From: Planktothrix sp. PCC 11201
GTDB lineage: Bacteria; Cyanobacteriota; Cyanobacteriia; Cyanobacteriales; Microcoleaceae
DNA length: 64,000 nucleotides
Assembly (NCBI RefSeq): GCF_900009135.1
Contig: NZ_LT797711.1
Location: 62,001-126,000 of the forward strand
Reading direction: 5' to 3'
Positions 7,249 to 16,280 of this stretch are shown piece by piece. The position numbers were made by a program, and so were the translations under genes. Every line of letters begins with the position of its first letter. The first letter of the stretch is position 1. The notes under the pieces are model-generated. The model was not told where the DNA came from, did not search any database, and saw only the letters and a list, made by a program, of their open reading frames with translations.

Positions 7249-7455
7249 ATGAATGCCATTTATAAACTGCCCTTAATTTTAGAACCTCAACCCGAAGGAG
7301 GTTATACAATTACTTGTCCTCTTTTGCCCAATTTAATTACTGAAGCTGATACTTTAGAAGAAGTTATTCCTAATGTATCCGATGCTTTACAAGCTTTAAT
7401 TGAAGCCTATCAAGATTTAAACCAACCCTTACCTGCTGTTTTAATGCCGATCTAA
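7249..7455 (+). CDS. HicB-like antitoxin family protein, no HicA partner
   Basis: This 68-residue protein has the HicB partial RNase H-like fold pattern: EGGYTITCPLLPNLITEADTLEE, read here as the motif GGYTITCPLLPN followed by TEADTLEE and a helix (SDALQALIEAY). HicB proteins bind and neutralise the HicA mRNA interferase and often repress their own operon. No hicA gene lies next to it: the upstream side is a MITE-like repeat, and the 3' end overlaps by 15 nt the 3' end of the convergent grpE-like gene. It is either an orphan antitoxin or a stand-alone HicB-fold protein. No clear Shine-Dalgarno site is visible, so the start is uncertain. Confidence 0.75.
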   Translation: MNAIYKLPLILEPQPEGGYTITCPLLPNLITEADTLEEVIPNVSDALQALIEAYQDLNQPLPAVLMPI

Positions 7456-7941
7456 TTTAGAGGTAATCACCTCAATCGGACGCAATACTTTATCATTGAC
7501 TCGAAATCCTTGGCGAACAACTTTTGTAATGGTTTGAGGTGAAAGATCCGGTTTAATTTCTCGATCAACAACTTTACATACTTCAAAATCGGGCTGATCT
7601 CCCTCTAATTCAATCGGTGTTACTTGTCGTTTTCCGAGAATATTTAATAGTTTTTTCTGAATACTTCCGACTGATTTAGGTAAACGTTGAATAAACTGGG
7701 GACTAGGATCGGGATTATTAGCCATATATTCCATTAAAAAGTCTAAAGCATCGACTACTTCTAATAATTCTAAAAATAATTCTTCATTAGCAGATTGATT
7801 TTGAGAGTCTTGTTCGCGTAAAGTTTGTTTTAGTGAAACTTCTTGTCTGAGGAGAGTCCCGATTTTATTAACGATGCGATCGAGGATTTCACTACTTAAT
7901 TTAATTTGACTCATTTGATTATTGTCGGTTGGGTGATTCAT
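7441..7941 (-). CDS. GrpE-like nucleotide exchange factor of the Hsp70 operon
   Basis: GrpE proteins release ADP from Hsp70. The 166-residue protein begins with a long helix-rich segment (to about residue 100), as expected for the GrpE dimer. The C-terminal beta domain shows the family pattern VVDREIKPDLSP, then VVRQGFRVNDKVLRPIEVI. It is the last gene of the leftward operon beginning at 15629, 73 nt after the J-like gene. The main dnaK-dnaJ-grpE set is normally elsewhere, so this is probably a dedicated second copy. The 3' end overlaps the convergent HicB-like gene by 15 nt. Family call is good; dedication to the Hsp70 here is inferred from linkage. Confidence 0.82.
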   Translation of the reverse strand: MNHPTDNNQMSQIKLSSEILDRIVNKIGTLLRQEVSLKQTLREQDSQNQSANEELFLELLEVVDALDFLMEYMANNPDPSPQFIQRLPKSVGSIQKKLLNILGKRQVTPIELEGDQPDFEVCKVVDREIKPDLSPQTITKVVRQGFRVNDKVLRPIEVITSKLDRH

Positions 7942-7985
7942 AGTTATTCTATCCTAATTATTAATTGAAAAATTTTCAGTCCCCC

Positions 7986-8002
7986 CAGAAATCCGGTTTC
8001 TG
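7986..8002. repeat. AGAAA(N5)TTTCT dispersed palindrome
   Basis: CAGAAATCCGGTTTCTG is a perfect 6-bp-arm palindrome between the grpE-like and J-like genes. Close variants occur at 13939-13953, around 33792, around 33844 and around 61368, always intergenic. It is probably a short dispersed cyanobacterial repeat. Confidence 0.5.
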
Positions 8003-8014
8003 GCGGTTTATATT

Positions 8015-8371
8015 TTAAAATAAAGTCGCTCCTAGCTTTTGATCGACTTTTGAAATTTGATTAATTTGCTGAATTATTGTGTCTAAATTATCAAATTCTG
8101 ATAAAAACTCAACTTGAAGTTCTGGATTTTCTAACTCAGACAAGTCAGTGCGTTTAAATCTTTGAATCGGGGGTAAAATCGGGCGAAGATAATCGGCTAA
8201 AATTCGTTCTTCCTGATTCATTAAGGTTTTTCTAGCCTTAGCAATGATATCAGGAGAATAGCTGCGTTTTTTCATTGCTAAAGTAAACGCTTTGGTAATT
8301 TCAGCATTGGAAGCACCCGGAGATACTTCTAATACATCATAGGGATTCGGATTAGATAATTGATTATCCAT
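8015..8371 (-). CDS. J-domain-like protein lacking the HPD motif
   Basis: Residues ~10-60 resemble a J domain: helix I is YDVLEVSPGASNAEITKAF, helix II TLAMKK, and later helices include KARKTLMNQEERILADYL. The HPD tripeptide that stimulates Hsp70 ATPase is replaced by SPD (in RSYSPD), so the key His is missing. The remaining ~55 residues are short helical sequence with no zinc-finger or glycine/phenylalanine region. The gene starts 12 nt after the stop of the 919-aa repeat protein, with AGGAAAG as ribosome site. Linkage to hsp70 and grpE supports a J-derived role, perhaps as a docking rather than an activating partner; that is inference. Confidence 0.7.
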   Translation of the reverse strand: MDNQLSNPNPYDVLEVSPGASNAEITKAFTLAMKKRSYSPDIIAKARKTLMNQEERILADYLRPILPPIQRFKRTDLSELENPELQVEFLSEFDNLDTIIQQINQISKVDQKLGATLF

Positions 8372-8383
8372 GATTAAACTTTC

Positions 8384-11143
8384 CTAATAATAAATAATTC
8401 CTAACTGAGAGAAAATCGGTTTAAATGCAGGTTCATTGGGACAAAGTTGATAAGCAAATCGTGCCAGTTGCATAATTAGCTCGTGGGGTAATTGGCGACT
8501 TTCTGCACCCTTCATTAAAGCGATAATGAAATGTTCAGCCAGATAGCGACGAACAGGGTCATATTGACAAGATTTTGCCCGTCTAACAGCATCTTCATAT
8601 CGATTTTTTTTCATCAACTTATGAATTTCATTTAATTCTTGACCGATCTGATAAATTTCTTTAATGTCTGATTCTTGGGGAAGTAGTTCATAGGCCCATC
8701 GGCTAAAATTATATAAATCTTCAAAACTTAAATTATGTTGATTAAATCCCTCAGCAAAAACTTCTAAGCAGATTTTACCAATTTGGAATTTAAGCTCGTT
8801 ATTGTTTGAGTTTTTAGCCCGACTAACAGCCTGTTCAAATTTACCATTTTTCCAAAGTTGATCGATTTCTTCTGCTACTGTTGTATATTCTATTCTATTG
8901 ATTAAATCAATAATAATGGGATGATGAGCATCAATTTTTTGGAGTTCTTTGAGTTGTTGTAATGCTTGAGTAGAATTAATGGTTTTATTGACTAAGTTTT
9001 GACGAATTTTTTCCGTTTTATGTTCAATTAAATAACTCCGAGATTCTGGGCTGTTTAAAAGTTCATACCAAAATTCAGCAAAACTCAACTGTTCATCTAT
9101 ATTTGATATAATGTTCCTTTGGTTTTTACATAATCTGTCAATTTCATTAAACCATTCAGAATTAGCTGGAAATTCATATTTAACTGATTTTAACACAGAA
9201 ACAGCCTGTTTCCAACGGTTTTGTTGGAGATAATAATAGCCTTCTGAATAGGATAAAAACCCCTGAGCAAAACGTTCTGCTTCTGTTTTAGGAGATACCC
9301 CAGAGGGTTTAATTTTGATAGCTCGTTCTAAATCTCCTTCAAAAGCTGCCGCCACCGCCATTCCAAAAGAACTATAAAGAGCTACCAAAATTTTAACTTC
9401 TAAAACCGATGAATTTGTAATGGTTGGAAGTTGCAATGTTTTTAAAGAACGTTGATGATGTTCATAACATTCTGGTAAAATTAAAAGATGATTAATTTTA
9501 GCACTAAAGTTAGGAAACTTTTTAATTAATTGTAAAGCTAGGGTATCTCGACGGAAGCGATCGCGCAACTGTAAATACTCTTGAGGATGATCATCTTTAA
9601 GGGTATCAATAGAAGTTGATAGTAAAGACTGTAAACGGGTAGAAACCTCTGAATAATTGACGGATTTACCTTGTAACCAAGAAAGATTTTTTGGGTTTAG
9701 GGATGGGTCAAGATTAAAGTTTGCTAAAGCTGTTGCACCTGCTATTAACCAATCTCCGCGTTTATTAGGATAGATTTGAGCTTGATAGTAACAAGCAATA
9801 ACCCAATTATGCAAGGATTTAATATCGCAATTTTGAATCCATTGACTTTCTGTATTTTCAGCAATTTTTAACCAATCTTTTTCTTGCCAAATTTCTGACT
9901 CTAAACGAGGTTGTATGTGATCTTCTAGGTTGGATTTCACAATAGAATCAACACCAAACTTTTTGATAAAATTACTGCTACTAGACAAAGCTAATTTCAG
10001 TTTATTATTATTAACATATTCTTCAATTTCTCTAATTGCTAACAAACGTTGACGTTGAGTAATATTTTGAATAATTAGACGTTGCTTTTTAACGTTATGA
10101 TCAGTCAAAGATTGCCATTCCCGATCAGCTTGTGGCAAATTGTTCTGCTTAAAATAGGCAAAACCTCGCAAGTAATTTGCCTGTTGTCCCGGTACTTTTT
10201 CTAAATAATGGATCACCTGATTCCAGTTCTCTGTTTTGACTGATAAAAGGCTTAACCGCATCCGAGCTTCTGTTAACTCCGGTAATAGCATTAAAGCTTC
10301 TTGGTAGTGAGTATCTGCTTTTTTAAAATCTCCCGATTTCTCAGCTAATAGTCCTTGATTAAATAATTTTTTACTGTGAATAACCCGACTTAATTGTATG
10401 ACTAACTCTTGTCCATCTGAACGATTAAATTGAGCTTGAGCCGGGTCTAATACAGCCAAAGCGTCCTTAAATTGACCTGCTTTTGCCATCGATCTAACTT
10501 TTTTTAAGGTTACTTCATATTGTTCTTCTTGTTTAACTTGAACAGAACTATTTTGAATTGCTGTTTGTAACTCATCAGTCACAAATAATTCCTGGGCTTG
10601 TGCAAAATAAGCTAAGGCTTGCTTAAACTGTTTCCGTTTAGCTTGCTCTTGACCTGTGGCAAAAAAACTTTGAAATTGATGGCGACATTTAATTTCTTTT
10701 TGACAACGCTCAATGGATTTAATTAACTTCGGATCATCAATCAGATTTGTACATTTTTGATACAGTTGTACAACCTGTGATAAGACCGTAATATCCATGG
10801 GATTCTTTTGATCAGAATCTTCAAGTTTTCTTGCAGAAGCTAAGGTTTTTTGAACCATTTTAACTTGACTATGCCATGTTTTAACCTGGGGTTTAAATTT
10901 TTCTAGTAAATCTCCCATCGCCATATATCTAAATCTTTGTTCAAAAAAAGCTGGCGATGATGGCCATTGAGCGATGACTTTTTTCCCAATTTGAACGGCT
11001 TTTAGGAGTTGCTTCCGTTGCGCTAATGTTCGGGCTTGTTGAATATCTTTTTTAGATTGGGCTGCTTTTAGAAAAACATCAAAAACACCCACTCTAAAAA
11101 TAATTAGGCTTAAATAATTAATCCCATTTAAAATTGATTTCAT
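8384..11143 (-). CDS. Large TPR/helical repeat protein of the Hsp70 operon
   Basis: This 919-residue protein is almost wholly helical, with TPR-like units throughout: for example LFNQGLLAEKSGDFKKADTH around residue 260, and further units near 620-660 and 840-900. The first ~30 residues are hydrophobic and could be a membrane anchor. I chose ATG 11143 because it overlaps the upstream stop as ATGA, which suits translational coupling; an in-frame TTG two codons earlier is less likely. I recognise no enzymatic motif. As the largest member of an operon with Hsp70, GrpE-like and J-like proteins, it may be a scaffold or client adaptor (inference). Confidence 0.8.
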   Translation of the reverse strand: MKSILNGINYLSLIIFRVGVFDVFLKAAQSKKDIQQARTLAQRKQLLKAVQIGKKVIAQWPSSPAFFEQRFRYMAMGDLLEKFKPQVKTWHSQVKMVQKTLASARKLEDSDQKNPMDITVLSQVVQLYQKCTNLIDDPKLIKSIERCQKEIKCRHQFQSFFATGQEQAKRKQFKQALAYFAQAQELFVTDELQTAIQNSSVQVKQEEQYEVTLKKVRSMAKAGQFKDALAVLDPAQAQFNRSDGQELVIQLSRVIHSKKLFNQGLLAEKSGDFKKADTHYQEALMLLPELTEARMRLSLLSVKTENWNQVIHYLEKVPGQQANYLRGFAYFKQNNLPQADREWQSLTDHNVKKQRLIIQNITQRQRLLAIREIEEYVNNNKLKLALSSSSNFIKKFGVDSIVKSNLEDHIQPRLESEIWQEKDWLKIAENTESQWIQNCDIKSLHNWVIACYYQAQIYPNKRGDWLIAGATALANFNLDPSLNPKNLSWLQGKSVNYSEVSTRLQSLLSTSIDTLKDDHPQEYLQLRDRFRRDTLALQLIKKFPNFSAKINHLLILPECYEHHQRSLKTLQLPTITNSSVLEVKILVALYSSFGMAVAAAFEGDLERAIKIKPSGVSPKTEAERFAQGFLSYSEGYYYLQQNRWKQAVSVLKSVKYEFPANSEWFNEIDRLCKNQRNIISNIDEQLSFAEFWYELLNSPESRSYLIEHKTEKIRQNLVNKTINSTQALQQLKELQKIDAHHPIIIDLINRIEYTTVAEEIDQLWKNGKFEQAVSRAKNSNNNELKFQIGKICLEVFAEGFNQHNLSFEDLYNFSRWAYELLPQESDIKEIYQIGQELNEIHKLMKKNRYEDAVRRAKSCQYDPVRRYLAEHFIIALMKGAESRQLPHELIMQLARFAYQLCPNEPAFKPIFSQLGIIYY

Positions 11144-11682
11144 GGACAATTTTCCTCTAAATTAGGAACAAAAAACACTTCTCCAATTTCAATCGAGCTT
11201 TCTCTGCCTTTCAGGGTGGGGTTAACTGCAACAATTTTTGAAAATAACTGACTGCGGCCATAAAATTGAGCAGCAATTCTATTCAGAGAATCTCCCCGTT
11301 TAACAGTGTAATAAAAACCCCCACAGGATGATTGAGATCGAGTAGATTTTGGAGTAGATTTGATAGCAGGGGGCTTTAATTCGGGTAAAAGGGTAGTAGT
11401 TGCTGTTGAGACTGGAGGAGATGGTTGAGTAGCAAATAGAGAGGTTCCCATTGCTCCTAAACCGAACCCTAAAATCAGAATTAAAATTGCTAAAATCACC
11501 AATTTTATTGAGATATTGGGTTGAGTAGTTAACAAATTTTCTGCGGGAATTACTATTGATTTTTCGTCACCTACAGGAAGTTCTTGTAGTTGGCGAATTA
11601 GAGATAAATCCGTTTCGCAATTAGGGCAAATATTGTCTTCTATTTCCGGGCGATCGCAAACTGGACAAATTAATTTAATCAT
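11140..11682 (-). CDS. Zinc-ribbon, single-TM, LysM domain protein
   Basis: The 180-residue protein has three parts. Residues 6-22 form a zinc ribbon (CPVCDRP...ICPNC, two CxxC pairs 12 residues apart). Residues ~60-85 are one membrane segment (LVILAILILILGFGLGAMG). The C-terminus is a LysM domain, YTVKRGDSLNRIAAQFYG...IEIGEVFFVPNL, which usually binds peptidoglycan or other glycans. With the zinc ribbon in the cytosol, LysM would lie in the periplasm, which links the cytosolic Hsp70 set to the cell wall. The start codon overlaps the Hsp70 stop by one nucleotide, and the stop overlaps the next start by 4 nt, so the three genes are surely co-transcribed. Confidence 0.85.
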   Translation of the reverse strand: MIKLICPVCDRPEIEDNICPNCETDLSLIRQLQELPVGDEKSIVIPAENLLTTQPNISIKLVILAILILILGFGLGAMGTSLFATQPSPPVSTATTTLLPELKPPAIKSTPKSTRSQSSCGGFYYTVKRGDSLNRIAAQFYGRSQLFSKIVAVNPTLKGRESSIEIGEVFFVPNLEENCP

Positions 11683-13892
11683 TAGCGTGTTAATCCTGTA
11701 GCAATAGTTCCGGCGGGTAAATCCTGATCTAAATATTTCATAATATCAGGACGAAGTTCATCAAAAATACGATTAATTTCATATTCATTCCCCTGTTTTA
11801 ATGCTCCAATTAGTTGGGAAAATTTACCTTCCATGACTCTAGCATGACTAGGATTAATCCGATAAGCTTGTGCAATTCCTTCACGAGTTAGACAGATTAA
11901 TTTAACTGGATCTGGCAGGTTTTCATACTCTCGTCTTGCATCTTCTGCTAGTTTTTGCAGGGCTGATTTATTATTGTGTTCTAGGGCTTGATTTAAGTCT
12001 TGAACTAAGGTTTGTAATCGCTGTTTTTGGGCGGGATGAATTAAGGAATCACAAACCTCTAGGACAAACTCAAACATAGTTTGATAGAATTGAGCAGTAT
12101 CTCGTTCTTCTGAGGCAAAATTCTCTAATTCTTTGAGTTTATTCTGAGCAGCTTCTAAGCGATCTGATTGAATCTTATCATTCTGATAAATTTGATTCGC
12201 TGATTTAATTACCTCTCCAGCAATTTCATTGGCATTTTGCACACCCGTTTCTGTTAAATTAGCAGCCGCATTCAGTTCTTTAATTCGTTGTTCAACCTGT
12301 CGAGAGATTTCTTCATTTATTCCTCCCCGAGAGAAAGAACAACTCACTTTAACCTCTGGTTTATTTTTGAGTGCAGCCATCATTTGTAAGGAGTTATTTT
12401 GTTCATCTAATTCGACCGTTACTAACACTTCTGTTCCCCGTGGATAGGGTTGATCTAAGGCTAACCACATATCGCCAATGCGTTCATCTCGGTCAGTGTT
12501 ATCTAAATCTTTTCTCACCAAATCAGGACTAAAAAATTTAAAATGAATTAAGCGTTGTCCGTCTGCTTCTGTTTTGAAGTTATGGAATTTTTTAACGGGA
12601 AGAATCTCTCCTTGCGGAATAATTATAAATCGAGGATCATTGACTAATTCAATACAATAATCACGGGAAACTGTTGTAACTTTTTCGGTTAATCCGGCTG
12701 CTACAATTGCCGCCCCTTCTGCAACTGCATACATGGGATTAGGATGTACTAAAACTTGATTGATTGGGAAAGCTTCTCGAATTTTTTGTTGTACTATAGG
12801 AACCTGTGAGGAACCTCCGACTAACAAAATTACATCAATTTGATCTAATGGATAATCAGAATATTTGATCACATCATAGCAAATTTTAACTGAACGCTCA
12901 ATTAAAGGTGTAATTAATTGTTCAAATTTTTGACGAGTAATGGTAACTTGAATGGGAACCGCCATTCCTAATTCATCTAATAAAGGTGTGGAAGTAATAA
13001 TCTCGGCTGAAGGCTGACTACTGAGTTGAATTTTTGCTTTTTCCGCTTCAATTTTAAGTTCTCCTAATAAACGAACCCGTTGATAATGGGGCATTTTGGC
13101 AATTAATTGATCAAGATTATTTAAACCTTCTTGACGGGCAACTTCTTGCTTAACAAATTCAATAATTGAGTGATCAAAATCATCCCCTCCTAACCATAAA
13201 TCCCCTGCTTTAGCGGATTCAATAAATTGATTTCCCACCGCCGTCACAATTGAACAATCTAAAGTTCCACCCCCAAAGTCATAAACTAAAAGGGTTTTAA
13301 CCTCATCAGAATTAGCACTATAACTATAGGAAATAGCAGCAGCAGTAGGTTCAGGAAGCAGTTCTCGCAAACTTAATCCGGCTTTCCCAGAGGCGATTTG
13401 AGTGGCATATCTTTGTTTATCATTAAAATAGGCAGGAATAGTAACAACGGCTTGATTAATGATACTTTTCTGTCCGGTTTTAGCTTGGTGAGTTTGAGCA
13501 TTTTGGACTAATTTTTTGAGAATTTCTGCCGCAATATCTTCAGGTTGATATTCTTTTCCCCCTAACCAAACGGAAAGACTATTATCTGTTCCTTGAGTGG
13601 ATTTAGTAATTTTATAACCAAAGCGAGATAATTGTTCTTGAATAACGGGATCATTAAACCCTCGTCCGATGAGACGTTTAATCGAAATGATCACGTTTTC
13701 GGGATCGTTTTGCAATTGATTATAGGCACTATTTCCAACTTTAATTTTACCTTGATCTAAGGCGACGACTGAACGGGTTAATTTTCGATCAGGTGGGGTG
13801 TTATCCTCTGCCGTTACGACATCAGTATGGGCTAATTTAAAAGCTGCTACTGAGTTAGTTGTACCGAGATCAATTCCAACGATGTTACCCAT
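11682..13892 (-). CDS. Hsp70 family chaperone with divergent substrate-binding half
   Basis: The first ~395 residues are a complete Hsp70 ATPase domain: GIDLGTTNSVAAF (phosphate 1), LVYDFGGGTLDCS (phosphate 2) and LLVGGSSQVPIV (adenosine). After that the protein departs from DnaK. The hydrophobic interdomain linker (normally VLLLDVTPLSLG-like) is not seen, and the expected region reads EKVTTVSRDYCIELVN. A beta-rich segment follows to about residue 525, then a long helical, coiled-coil tail to residue 736. The end lacks the EEVD-like tail and reads GTIATGLTR. It could be related to cyanobacterial DnaK1-type proteins, but I cannot settle that without alignment. It is the second gene of the operon, 84 nt after the membrane protein gene. 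Confidence 0.92.
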   Translation of the reverse strand: MGNIVGIDLGTTNSVAAFKLAHTDVVTAEDNTPPDRKLTRSVVALDQGKIKVGNSAYNQLQNDPENVIISIKRLIGRGFNDPVIQEQLSRFGYKITKSTQGTDNSLSVWLGGKEYQPEDIAAEILKKLVQNAQTHQAKTGQKSIINQAVVTIPAYFNDKQRYATQIASGKAGLSLRELLPEPTAAAISYSYSANSDEVKTLLVYDFGGGTLDCSIVTAVGNQFIESAKAGDLWLGGDDFDHSIIEFVKQEVARQEGLNNLDQLIAKMPHYQRVRLLGELKIEAEKAKIQLSSQPSAEIITSTPLLDELGMAVPIQVTITRQKFEQLITPLIERSVKICYDVIKYSDYPLDQIDVILLVGGSSQVPIVQQKIREAFPINQVLVHPNPMYAVAEGAAIVAAGLTEKVTTVSRDYCIELVNDPRFIIIPQGEILPVKKFHNFKTEADGQRLIHFKFFSPDLVRKDLDNTDRDERIGDMWLALDQPYPRGTEVLVTVELDEQNNSLQMMAALKNKPEVKVSCSFSRGGINEEISRQVEQRIKELNAAANLTETGVQNANEIAGEVIKSANQIYQNDKIQSDRLEAAQNKLKELENFASEERDTAQFYQTMFEFVLEVCDSLIHPAQKQRLQTLVQDLNQALEHNNKSALQKLAEDARREYENLPDPVKLICLTREGIAQAYRINPSHARVMEGKFSQLIGALKQGNEYEINRIFDELRPDIMKYLDQDLPAGTIATGLTR

Positions 13893-13938
13893 GATATTTG
13901 TCCTAATTTAATCTAAGATTGATGATTTGTTTGAGTGT

Positions 13939-13953
13939 AGAAACCGGGTTTCT
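13939..13953. repeat. Dispersed palindrome AGAAACCGGGTTTCT
   Basis: This is another copy of the AGAAA(N5)TTTCT family, located between the membrane/TPR gene and the hsp70 gene. It could form a small hairpin in the operon mRNA. Confidence 0.45.
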
Positions 13954-13976
13954 TAGGGTTATGTTTAATTCATGTT

Positions 13977-15629
13977 TTACCCCCTACTTAACTCTGGAAT
14001 TTTTTGGATCAGATACGCATTACTTCGCAATAGTTTGCGAGCGAGTGCTTGTTTTTGGATAAAGTTGGGTGATAAATTTTGAGATGAACCTCCTAAACCT
14101 AAACGGTAGACGACTTCTTTCGCTGCAATGGAGCGATAATCAAACCCCATTGAGTCGGCAAAAATGGCGCGGGAAGTATCGCTTTCATTAAGTTTTAAGG
14201 CTTGTTTCCAATAGCTTAAGCAAGCATTAATTTGCAGGGCGGCGGTTAGGGCTGTTGCTAATTTTAAGTTAGCCCAATAATGATCGGGATTTAAACTCAA
14301 GGCTTGCATATAACATTGACAACTAATCATTAAGGATTCTCGGGCGTGAGCCATAATTCTTTTAGCACTTTCTTGGGCTTGTTCTGCACCTCCATTTTTA
14401 GCAGAAATTCCCAGTTGTTCAAAGAAATGTCGATCATATTGTCCAGCAAAAATGCCATCTCCCCAAAAGGAATTATAACTGTGATCATAAGCTTCTCCAG
14501 CTTGAAATAACTTTTCAGAATTTAATTCTGCCTGGGCTTGTTCATAAATTGCAAAACCTTGAGGATTAAGTTGTTTCATTTTATTTAAAATGTGGGAATC
14601 AATTTCTATATCTGGTTTATTTTTAACGTGATTTTGTCTTTCAAAATTTTGTTTGTATATTTCTAATGCTGGAATAATATCTTCTGATATTTGATCAGAA
14701 GAATAATGTTCAGGTTCATTAATAACTGGAAGCCCAGGTAAATCAGTATTTAAAATAGAATCTTCCTCAAAGTCGCTTAAGCTCAAATCTTCTTCTTGAG
14801 TTTCGAGGTTTTCTTCCGTTAAACTTTTGATTTTGATGGGGGAGTTACTCTCAATATCAAAAAAGGAAAGTGTTTGATTCTCAGAATCATTTTTTAGGCT
14901 ATCAATTGCTCTAAAAGCTGGGATAACTCTTTTTAATCCCGAACTCCATAAGGAATAAAAATATAGATAAAAAACGAGGTTAATTGACAAAATTAAGGAT
15001 AGAAAAATATTTCCTCTAGCAAAAAATACTAAGATTGGTTGAATATTAACTAAGGCAACAAAAACAGTAAGAATAATATTGTATAAGATAGCAGCAATTC
15101 CCAAAAATACAGCGATTTTTGATTGTTTTTTAATCCAGTTACCTAATAAGAAAAAAGGTATTATTAAAAATAAAAATATCCCCGGAATTATAAACCATGA
15201 ATTATTGATCAATTCCCGTGAATTCAAATCAGGACGTGAGTAAGCCCAAATCATATCAAGATAACTACCAAAACTAATCAAACAAATCAACAGGAAAATA
15301 TAAGGAATCCCGTATAACAATAAGTGAATTTTTCCAATCAAGAATAGGGTTTGGTAAGCTTTGGGTAAAACAATATTGGGATCGGTTGGTGATCCGGGTA
15401 TGGGTTTCCCATCTAATAAAATTTGTAAATATTGAAATCCTAATATTCTAATTAATTTAATATGCAGTTCTGAAGTTTCATTTACAGCAAAATATTTGCC
15501 TTTTCTTAATTCCTTCCGTTTAGGAATAGTAGCGATTTCTTGACCATCAAAATAAATAATGGTGTTTTTCCAATGTTTATTCCAAGAAACAACTAATCTA
15601 GGTTCTAAAGCATAGGTCTGGCTTTTCAT
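13977..15629 (-). CDS. Membrane protein with cytosolic TPR-like tail, first gene of Hsp70 operon
   Basis: I do not recognise a named family. Residues 1-~90 are a soluble beta-type domain (LVVSWNKHWKNTIIYFDGQE...). Residues ~95-240 hold four or five strongly hydrophobic segments, for example IHLLLYGIPYIFLLICLISF and IFLFLIIPFFLLGNW. An acidic linker covers ~245-325, and the last ~200 residues are helical with TPR-like spacing (EAYDHSYNSF, ECYMQALSLNPDHYWANLKLA-type units). It begins the leftward run of six genes, with a 379-nt promoter region upstream. The topology suggests a membrane platform for the chaperone proteins encoded behind it (inference). Confidence 0.8.
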   Translation of the reverse strand: MKSQTYALEPRLVVSWNKHWKNTIIYFDGQEIATIPKRKELRKGKYFAVNETSELHIKLIRILGFQYLQILLDGKPIPGSPTDPNIVLPKAYQTLFLIGKIHLLLYGIPYIFLLICLISFGSYLDMIWAYSRPDLNSRELINNSWFIIPGIFLFLIIPFFLLGNWIKKQSKIAVFLGIAAILYNIILTVFVALVNIQPILVFFARGNIFLSLILSINLVFYLYFYSLWSSGLKRVIPAFRAIDSLKNDSENQTLSFFDIESNSPIKIKSLTEENLETQEEDLSLSDFEEDSILNTDLPGLPVINEPEHYSSDQISEDIIPALEIYKQNFERQNHVKNKPDIEIDSHILNKMKQLNPQGFAIYEQAQAELNSEKLFQAGEAYDHSYNSFWGDGIFAGQYDRHFFEQLGISAKNGGAEQAQESAKRIMAHARESLMISCQCYMQALSLNPDHYWANLKLATALTAALQINACLSYWKQALKLNESDTSRAIFADSMGFDYRSIAAKEVVYRLGLGGSSQNLSPNFIQKQALARKLLRSNAYLIQKIPELSRG

Positions 15630-16008
15630 GGTTAATTAACAGGTATAAAAACCTGGGTAATGAGTCAAAATTTTGTAGCAATGAATGGGGATATTAGAAA
15701 AAAATCTTGATCCGCTCAAAGCTTTTAATTTGGGGTGTTTTAAGAGCTACTAATAATACAAATATCAGCGCTGCTCTGATGAAATTGGGGTGATCAAAAA
15801 AATAGATACTCAAAAATTAAAATGAATTAGGGCGATCGCATCCATCATTTCTTGAGTTATATCTTAGGAGTTTATCCCTCACATAATGTTTTGTAAATCA
15901 GTAAAATTACCGAACTTTCATCTTTTTTAATATTTCGGCTCAATTTACCCCCTCGTTAGTCGAGCTATTTCGCTAAAATAAGCTCTCTAAAACTCAGGGG
16001 TGATGCTG
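15630..16008. other. 379-nt intergenic region upstream of the Hsp70 operon
   Basis: This region has no gene. It holds one HIP1-like octamer (GCGATCGC at about 15832) and AT-rich sequence that should include the promoter of the leftward operon. I see no CIRCE-type inverted repeat (TTAGCACTC-N9-GAGTGCTAA), so classical HrcA control is not indicated. Confidence 0.5.
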
Positions 16009-16203
16009 CTACCAGTCCGAATCTGATTCGTTTCCCTCCCACATCTCCCGTTCTGAATCTCTTTCTAATTCCCGATCTAAGGAGTTTTGTTCTCGGTAAT
16101 CATCGTAACTATCCTGAACATCTCGGTCGGAGTCATATTCGTGGTCGTTGTTGTCGTAACCGTCTTCACCTGGGCCAAAATTATCGTAACGCATGGTCAC
16201 CAA
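16009..16203 (-). CDS. Small acidic hypothetical protein
   Basis: A 60-64 residue, extremely acidic and hydrophilic product (D, E, N, S, Y and R dominate; it ends GNESDSDW), probably disordered. Possible starts are TTG 16203, GTG 16200 or ATG 16194; a GAGGG lies just upstream of the GTG. I do not recognise the family. The biased composition is real coding-like sequence rather than low-complexity DNA, but expression is unproven. Confidence 0.45.
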   Translation of the reverse strand: MVTMRYDNFGPGEDGYDNNDHEYDSDRDVQDSYDDYREQNSLDRELERDSEREMWEGNESDSDW

Positions 16204-16280
16204 TCCCTCATGATCGTTTCTCCTGACCTATTGCCACCTGCGAACAAAATTACGCAAATTTTCAAAAATTTTTTAGAGTA

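Follow-up and report, generated by a model that had tools for sequence, protein, structure and literature searches.

What does a divergent Hsp70 do when it is encoded next to cofactors of its own and to a module for the cell envelope? This question is raised by a leftward gene cluster in Planktothrix sp. PCC 11201, lying in a stretch of 64,000 nucleotides (contig NZ_LT797711.1, positions 62,001 to 126,000) that is referred to here as the window and from whose first letter all window positions are counted. The initial annotation had read the cluster as an operon of six genes. They encode a multi-transmembrane (TM) protein with a TPR-like end, the Hsp70, a zinc ribbon-TM-LysM protein (hereafter the anchor), a long TPR protein, a J-like protein without the His-Pro-Asp (HPD) motif of J-domains and a GrpE-like protein. 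All six minus-strand open reading frames (ORFs) are present where they had been placed. Five of them, coding for the Hsp70, anchor, TPR, J-like and GrpE-like proteins, form a conserved operon in many cyanobacteria. On balance, we favour the explanation that they encode a dedicated Hsp70 machine, anchored in the membrane and on the wall, which has cofactors of its own and a J-like subunit that works without the standard HPD switch.

Co-occurrence was assayed in 386 cyanobacterial genomes, the queries being the TPR and GrpE-like proteins together with a profile of the J-like family. Strong J-like matches were found in 28 genomes (E-value 2.3e-35 or better; next match 9.6e-7). Strong TPR matches were also found in 28 (4.0e-28 or better; next 1.4e-12), in a search that scored at most two candidates per genome and may therefore miss some. 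The two sets of genomes are identical. They take in damaged or cut copies (stop codons in G385, TPR pieces in G368, contig ends in G070 and G111). A GrpE-like gene (1e-14 or better) was detected in all 28 and in nine more.

Gene order was compared at 68 distinct loci with at least one member, after removal of eight contigs already in the set and of five loci with canonical matches only. Because a member gene had brought these loci in, it is the 386-genome sample that provides the fair test of co-occurrence. The order Hsp70-anchor-TPR-J-GrpE on one strand, with the GrpE-like gene last, was found at 49 of the 68; in one other (L071) the anchor gene comes first, and 18 are partial, five of these being ended by a contig edge (L066, L069, L115, L130 and L131). 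Both the Hsp70 and the TPR gene are long and unsplit in 42 of the 49 complete loci. Spacing is tight, with a median of -1 nt over 172 gaps at 43 loci, 134 of the gaps being 30 nt or less. Even the commonest flanking gene family is present at only 13 of 63 loci; thus, the block keeps together in differing surroundings. Conservation of the neighbours in other genomes had been suggested as a check on the operon, and the five genes indeed stay together far outside Planktothrix.

The operon was also looked for in other collections. A GTDB contig scan with the J-like profile, relying on one peptide pattern, gave 38 loci, all cyanobacterial (Planktothrix, Arthrospira, Nostoc, Anabaena, Calothrix, Spirulina, Aliterella, Crocosphaera and others), which says nothing certain on absence in other phyla. 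Among 72,556 plasmids, there was no match to the TPR or GrpE-like protein, and viral contigs gave four weak matches, each to part of the J-domain. At the thresholds used, L073, L085 and L090 contained no family match. The anchor-first locus (L071, 1049-7069) is a divergent copy from a genome (G026) belonging to another class than the window, in which it is the only one of 18 genomes with the operon. A further contig, from UBA8402 (L094, 1-8478), begins and ends inside the Hsp70 gene at adjoining coordinates (570 + 166 = 736 aa); the unit may exist there in circular or tandem form, or the assembly may have looped across the flanking repeats.

The sixth gene does not belong to the conserved unit, and the six-gene unit was rejected. 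In the window the TM/TPR gene is complete. L096 covers it at about 95% DNA identity, L094 lacks part of it, and in P. rubescens (L038) it is deleted save for a 57-aa piece. No homologue was found in the other loci compared, a comparison that among L094-L131 covered L094 and L096, as DNA. Its protein gives a weak Pfam TPR score, under cut-off.

The five genes are under purifying selection. In 14 genome pairs, the ratio of nonsynonymous to synonymous substitution rates (dN/dS) was below 1 for each of them, with values of 0.046-0.243 for the Hsp70. The highest value, 0.969, was obtained for the anchor of the L039-L113 pair, in which the L039 gene is shortened.

The Hsp70 itself is clearly a member of its family (Pfam PF00012, 325.7 bits for a gathering cut-off of 20.6; E-value 5.9e-97). 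It fails the curated DnaK cut-offs (TIGR02350, 302.9 vs 822.55 bits; NF001413, 309.4 vs 648), and the three canonical DnaKs of the 6.0-Mb host genome score 805-890 bits vs 325 for the operon protein. We aligned 55 operon Hsp70s, of which 47 are distinct, with six Hsp70s for comparison, one of them E. coli DnaK. The catalytic residues D8, T11, K70, E171, D194, T199 and D201 are kept in 47/47. The position of R167 holds Glu (43), Ile (2), Val (1) or Lys (1) and never Arg; that of N170 holds Pro (43), Ser (3) or Ala (1). Residues L390-D393 of the VLLLD linker align to a gap in all 47. E. coli DnaK and three Planktothrix DnaKs retain R167, N170 and L390-D393, while in two other comparison Hsp70s, taken from relatives, position 167 is Gln and the linker is present but changed. 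A C-terminal tail of the form TG[LI]x[RKQ], a further F being allowed, is carried by 46 of the 47 and is absent from the six comparison Hsp70s. Column conservation averages 0.61 over the helical part and 0.81 over the last six residues. In a tree built with 26 of the 47, the operon Hsp70s form one group on a long stem, with a support of 88/76, under the tool's strong level.

The C-terminal half had been described as divergent. It is, and in the structure model (mean predicted local distance difference test score, pLDDT, 83.9; 18 sequences) it still appears to hold a substrate-binding beta-domain (about 412-519) behind the ATPase domain, followed by a larger helical part with nine further helices. 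Model residues 3-523 match BiP over 477 residues at 3.1 A, the fold-search matches listed being filled by the front domains. This Hsp70 alone has previously been sequenced and measured, as P. agardhii hsp70(4): the published qPCR primers match the window exactly at 13796-13817 and 13559-13579. In that study (PMC3762838), hsp70(4) is among the group with the lowest mRNA level and shows no dnaK-like stress induction; under high light, wild-type hsp70(4) changed 0.82-fold at 2 h and 1.31-fold at 24 h, a slight but significant rise, and dnaK 13.3-fold at 2 h (PMC3762838).

The presumed partner of the Hsp70 on the cofactor side is the J-like protein. It scores under the Pfam PF00226 gathering cut-off (23.0 vs 27.8 bits; E-value 8.9e-5), and its family profile matches J-domains of the PDB (best E-value 3.7e-4), which supports its homology with them. 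The reported lack of HPD was confirmed and extends to the family, with 0/57 distinct J-like proteins carrying the motif. Which residues stand at this place depends on the register; MAFFT was run in two modes with E. coli DnaJ and the J-domains of the window genome. The place of H33 is never His in any of three possible registers. In the register preferred by MAFFT, a two-residue insertion lies in front, Pro, Ser, Asn, Ala or Lys stands in place of H33, 13/57 retain P34 and 42/57 retain D35, and the following loop is about 13 residues shorter; the window protein reads SPD. In a register with a one-residue gap, the three places are Lys/Arg, variable, and Tyr (51) or His (6). A charge-swapped contact, with basic residues at the HPD place facing the Glu at R167, was set aside, as it needs one of the three registers and MAFFT prefers another.

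According to a 2026 simulation paper, H33 contacts L391 of the linker and D35 contacts R167 (PMC13012618). With L391 and R167 as the contact points, both are changed on the Hsp70, and H33 is lost together with its linker partner. By these alignments, the standard J-domain switch is altered in both the J-like protein and the Hsp70, which is a new finding. The changes in the two proteins may be coupled.

The remaining members bring the envelope module and a predicted exchange factor. In the anchor, LysM is above the Pfam cut-off (1.3e-5) and the zinc ribbon under it. Across 60 anchors, the four Cys are invariant (60/60), the TM segment is found in 59 and LysM in 52. The envelope modules pointed out by the initial annotation are thus a recurrent feature, and at three loci a TM helix is also found on the J-like protein, which continues into SPOR-like repeats (L125 10001-11470, L126 10001-11470, L099 9131-10354). 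The SPOR matches are under the Pfam cut-off (0.006 in L125, 0.0027 in L099) or were judged by eye (L126), and this extension is a possible second wall-binding module. Of the 57 J-like proteins, 29 have lengths of 180-240 aa, and in the two scanned (L040, L047) the long extension gave a weak TPR score. The 919-aa protein matches Pfam TPR (4.8e-11). The GrpE-like protein passes Pfam PF01025 (74.3 bits, cut-off 25.8; 1.2e-20) and is predicted to be a dedicated nucleotide-exchange factor. Elsewhere, the genome encodes one other GrpE, which is canonical (G000:C27), and 12 J-domain model matches, the J-like gene not being among them; the operon GrpE-like and J-like proteins are therefore additional, private copies.

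The layout of the window block is summarized in the table below. The initial annotation's overlaps of 1 and 4 nt and gap of 12 nt are all found. Hsp70 and anchor genes share one nucleotide (position 11682), anchor and TPR genes share four provided the latter begins at ATG 11143 (an upstream TTG at 11149 would give 921 aa), and 12 nt separate the TPR and J-like genes. The other gaps are of 73 nt (J-like to GrpE-like) and 84 nt (TM/TPR to Hsp70). Within the window, no exact match to the CIRCE heat-shock element was found, promoter and terminator scans returned no more sites than in shuffles, and no RNA family reached its gathering score.

Table. Features of the operon and of the exchange unit in the window.
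Feature	Positions	Strand	Basis or remark
GrpE-like protein, 166 aa	7441..7941	-	Predicted dedicated nucleotide-exchange factor; Pfam GrpE
J-like protein, 118 aa; J-domain homologue without HPD	8015..8371	-	Pfam DnaJ, sub-threshold; family profile against PDB J-domains
Long TPR/helical-repeat protein, 919 aa from ATG	8384..11143	-	Pfam TPR
Anchor, 180 aa; N-terminal zinc ribbon, one TM at about 57-75, C-terminal LysM	11140..11682	-	Pfam, TM prediction
Divergent Hsp70, 736 aa; ATPase residues intact, no R167, no VLLLD linker, C-terminal TGLTR tail	11682..13892	-	Pfam, alignment, structure model
Multi-TM protein, weakly TPR-like end, 550 aa	13977..15629	-	Four TM segments; accessory, outside the conserved block
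Exchange unit in the Planktothrix hotspot	7451..16275		Same breakpoints bound other cargo in congeners
22-base junction repeat AAAATTACGCAAATTYTCAAAA	16246..16267	+	In several congeners, one copy adjoins the equivalent of 7451 and a second lies at the right end

From the observed gene set, gene order, domains, residue changes and purifying selection, we infer that the five proteins form one complex, with the following topology. The Hsp70 would act as an ATPase with a substrate-binding beta-domain, and the GrpE-like protein as its exchange factor. The anchor would hold the complex at the inner membrane and the wall, its zinc ribbon in the cytosol and its LysM domain on peptidoglycan. The TPR protein could be a scaffold or a client adaptor, possibly reading the TG[LI]x[RKQ] tail of the Hsp70. 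Finally, the J-like protein may bind through a changed interface, or serve as a docking or brake subunit like Pam16 in mitochondria. A more specific version of this machine is put forward as a tentative proposal. In this version, the near-universal HPD-R167/linker trigger would be replaced by a different, co-evolved contact between J-like protein and Hsp70, the zinc ribbon-TM-LysM protein would place the machine at the wall, and the tail would couple to the TPR protein, a parallel of independent origin to the way eukaryotic Hsp70s couple to TPR proteins through EEVD.

Compared with the canonical DnaK-DnaJ-GrpE system, the operon shares the three protein classes, the ATPase residues and the exchange-factor family. 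It differs by lacking HPD, R167 and the VLLLD linker, and by having the extra tail and the TPR and anchor genes. Pam16/Tim16 is an HPD-less J-like subunit in the membrane-linked Hsp70 machine of mitochondria, where it pairs with the active J-protein Pam18. The operon also has an HPD-less J-like subunit but no HPD-bearing J gene. No published description of the gene set was found in a literature search that was made mostly at the title and abstract level, with subscription papers and preprints outside it.

Several observations weigh against the dedicated machine or parts of it. LysM is absent from 8 of the 60 anchors. The Hsp70 tail is well ordered in the model (pLDDT 93, with a strand at 734-735), so its contact could be with the Hsp70 itself rather than with the TPR protein. 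With D35 possibly kept in the preferred register, the J-like side of the switch would be only partly dismantled. In-frame Hsp70-J-like fusions, which by themselves speak for the machine, occur at three separate places of the Hsp70 tree (L047 10593-13016, L054 10486-12636, L105 967-2664). In L047 and L054, the fused Hsp70 has Arg at K70 and altered phosphate-binding motifs; in L105, nothing of it follows the ATPase domain, and neither an anchor nor a TPR gene was detected next to the fusion. With altered ATP-site motifs in two and no substrate domain in the third, these fusions may be decay products. Moreover, seven loci (L074-L080), some of them flanked by Hsp70 pieces, have retained just the anchor and GrpE-like genes, two (L081, L082) the GrpE-like gene alone and one (L084) the anchor gene alone; the operon parts are thus separable. 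Among 12 genomes searched, including these seven, an intact operon Hsp70 or J-like gene was found only in G149, where a complete locus lies elsewhere; the anchor and GrpE-like genomes gave no TPR match. One genus group accounts for six of the seven, whose losses may be one event, with G197 in another family adding to it. In 15 pairs from six of these loci, dN/dS ranged over 0.11-0.22 in the anchor gene and over 0.12-0.26 in the GrpE-like gene, some of the divergence possibly predating the losses. Since both are kept at low dN/dS after loss of the Hsp70, TPR and J-like genes, they may serve something else. It is this retention that argues most strongly against strict dedication of all five parts. 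The dedicated system proposed initially is supported as regards its additional, private cofactor copies, and its dedication may be less than strict.

A first alternative is that the Hsp70 has given up its role as a folding chaperone and works as a nucleotide switch for an envelope process such as polysaccharide secretion, pili or wall growth. There is a cyanobacterial precedent: the DnaK1-DnaJ3-GrpE system of Nostoc punctiforme couples type IV pili to polysaccharide, and dnaK1 lies between the sole grpE and dnaJ11 (PMC9239167). Like the operon, it is a specialised cyanobacterial Hsp70 system linked to an envelope process. The difference is that a like arrangement, with GrpE, DnaK and DnaJ adjoining, is found at G000:C27 in the window genome, the operon being a second, divergent set. 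The G000:C27 locus is probably the counterpart of the N. punctiforme system, orthology being deduced from the arrangement. The LysM and SPOR-like modules point to the wall, and the low hsp70(4) mRNA without dnaK-like stress induction (PMC3762838) also fits a switch. However, the Hsp70 model retains the substrate-binding beta-domain, which argues against this reading. We regard this alternative as possible. It overlaps with the next one, in which the operon is a conflict system, anti-phage or anti-toxin, whose Hsp70 would act as a threshold switch at the envelope, sense damage or invasion and respond through the TPR protein.

The genomic setting in Planktothrix bears on this second alternative. 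The exchange unit lies between breakpoints (window 7450/7451 and about 16275) that are shared among Planktothrix genomes, and the hotspot loci compared were L083 and L147-L153. The flanks, labelled by eye, are a sigma-factor gene and an arfB-like/ABC-transporter region. Other cargo identified by PADLOC comprises ZorA/ZorB (L096 ZorA, 1.2e-193) and a NERD-UvrD helicase; XisHI, SMI1-like, E1-E2-JAB-like and toxin-antitoxin-like genes were labelled by eye. The junction repeat is not genome-wide, with 0-4 copies per genome in 10 genomes at two mismatches or fewer. A remnant made up of the final 92 bases of the grpE-like gene, ending at the same point each time, lies beside unrelated cargo in four relatives, at L083 (9331-9422, its only piece of the operon), L147 (3773-3864), L148 (6611-6702) and L150 (9702-9793), L147 additionally holding a complete operon copy. 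This remnant is a trace of an earlier copy or exchange. Near the right end of the unit lies a small, very acidic ORF of 64 aa (16009-16203, minus strand), and the surrounding DNA recurs at 84-91% identity in several congeners.

Such cargo, together with patchy presence (28/386), clear losses and remnants, speaks for a conflict system. Outside Planktothrix, neighbouring genes include matches to ZorC (2) and ZorA (1), and gave 252 PADLOC families vs 143 in controls, for partial protein sets (150/254 and 150/265 proteins scanned). Among the best 25 families, those of the neighbour set are for the most part methyltransferase models that overlap one another, and restriction, CRISPR-type and reverse-transcriptase matches occur in the controls too, so the higher count may or may not reflect an enrichment in defence genes. 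GAP1-N2 conflict systems bring together Hsp70, GrpE and proteins fused to DnaJ or TPR, along with zinc ribbons, TM helices and domains that bind peptidoglycan (Kaur et al. 2020, PMC7159879). Their HSP70/GrpE theme is the nearest described parallel in parts, sharing with the operon an Hsp70 with GrpE, J/TPR partners, a zinc ribbon, a TM segment and a wall-binding domain, carried here on a non-GTPase protein, as well as, in some, a second, reduced Hsp70. A changed HPD/R167/linker contact is not mentioned in the passages of that paper considered here (PMC7159879). No Pfam match to GAP1, GTPase or FNIII was found in the six window and eight variant proteins, the presence of a GAP1-N2 model in Pfam being unchecked. 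Because no GTPase was found, the operon is not assigned to these systems. The six window proteins have no PADLOC match at an E-value of 0.01 (the database covers systems described by 2023), no effector domain was recognised, and many of the genes that flank the operon in Nostocaceae resemble housekeeping genes when judged by eye. A conflict system seems somewhat unlikely. Given the hotspot with Zorya and other defence-type genes, a defence role of the operon is possible.

A third alternative does without a dedicated machine: the J-like and GrpE-like proteins would be additional cofactors serving the main DnaK. Pairs of anchor and GrpE-like genes do persist at low dN/dS, in one genus group, where only other Hsp70s are intact, and the J-like protein may keep D35. 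However, the J-like gene is missing from these genomes along with the operon Hsp70, as is any TPR match. Moreover, the canonical DnaKs of the window genome keep R167 and the linker, so a J-like protein without HPD should not trigger them in the standard way. We consider this alternative improbable. Finally, a decaying or passenger cassette without selected function, as broken or split copies could suggest (L070 with its stop codons, L072, and the split genes of L045, L097 and L104, some maybe sequencing errors), is very improbable and largely refuted by the selection test, the same five genes standing in the same order at 49 loci.

Altogether, the HPD contact is the accepted trigger of Hsp70s, and a widely kept system with an ATPase but a changed contact is a natural experiment on Hsp70 regulation. 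The envelope modules suggest a chaperone or a switch acting at the bacterial wall, and the hotspot setting in Planktothrix links the system to possible defence.

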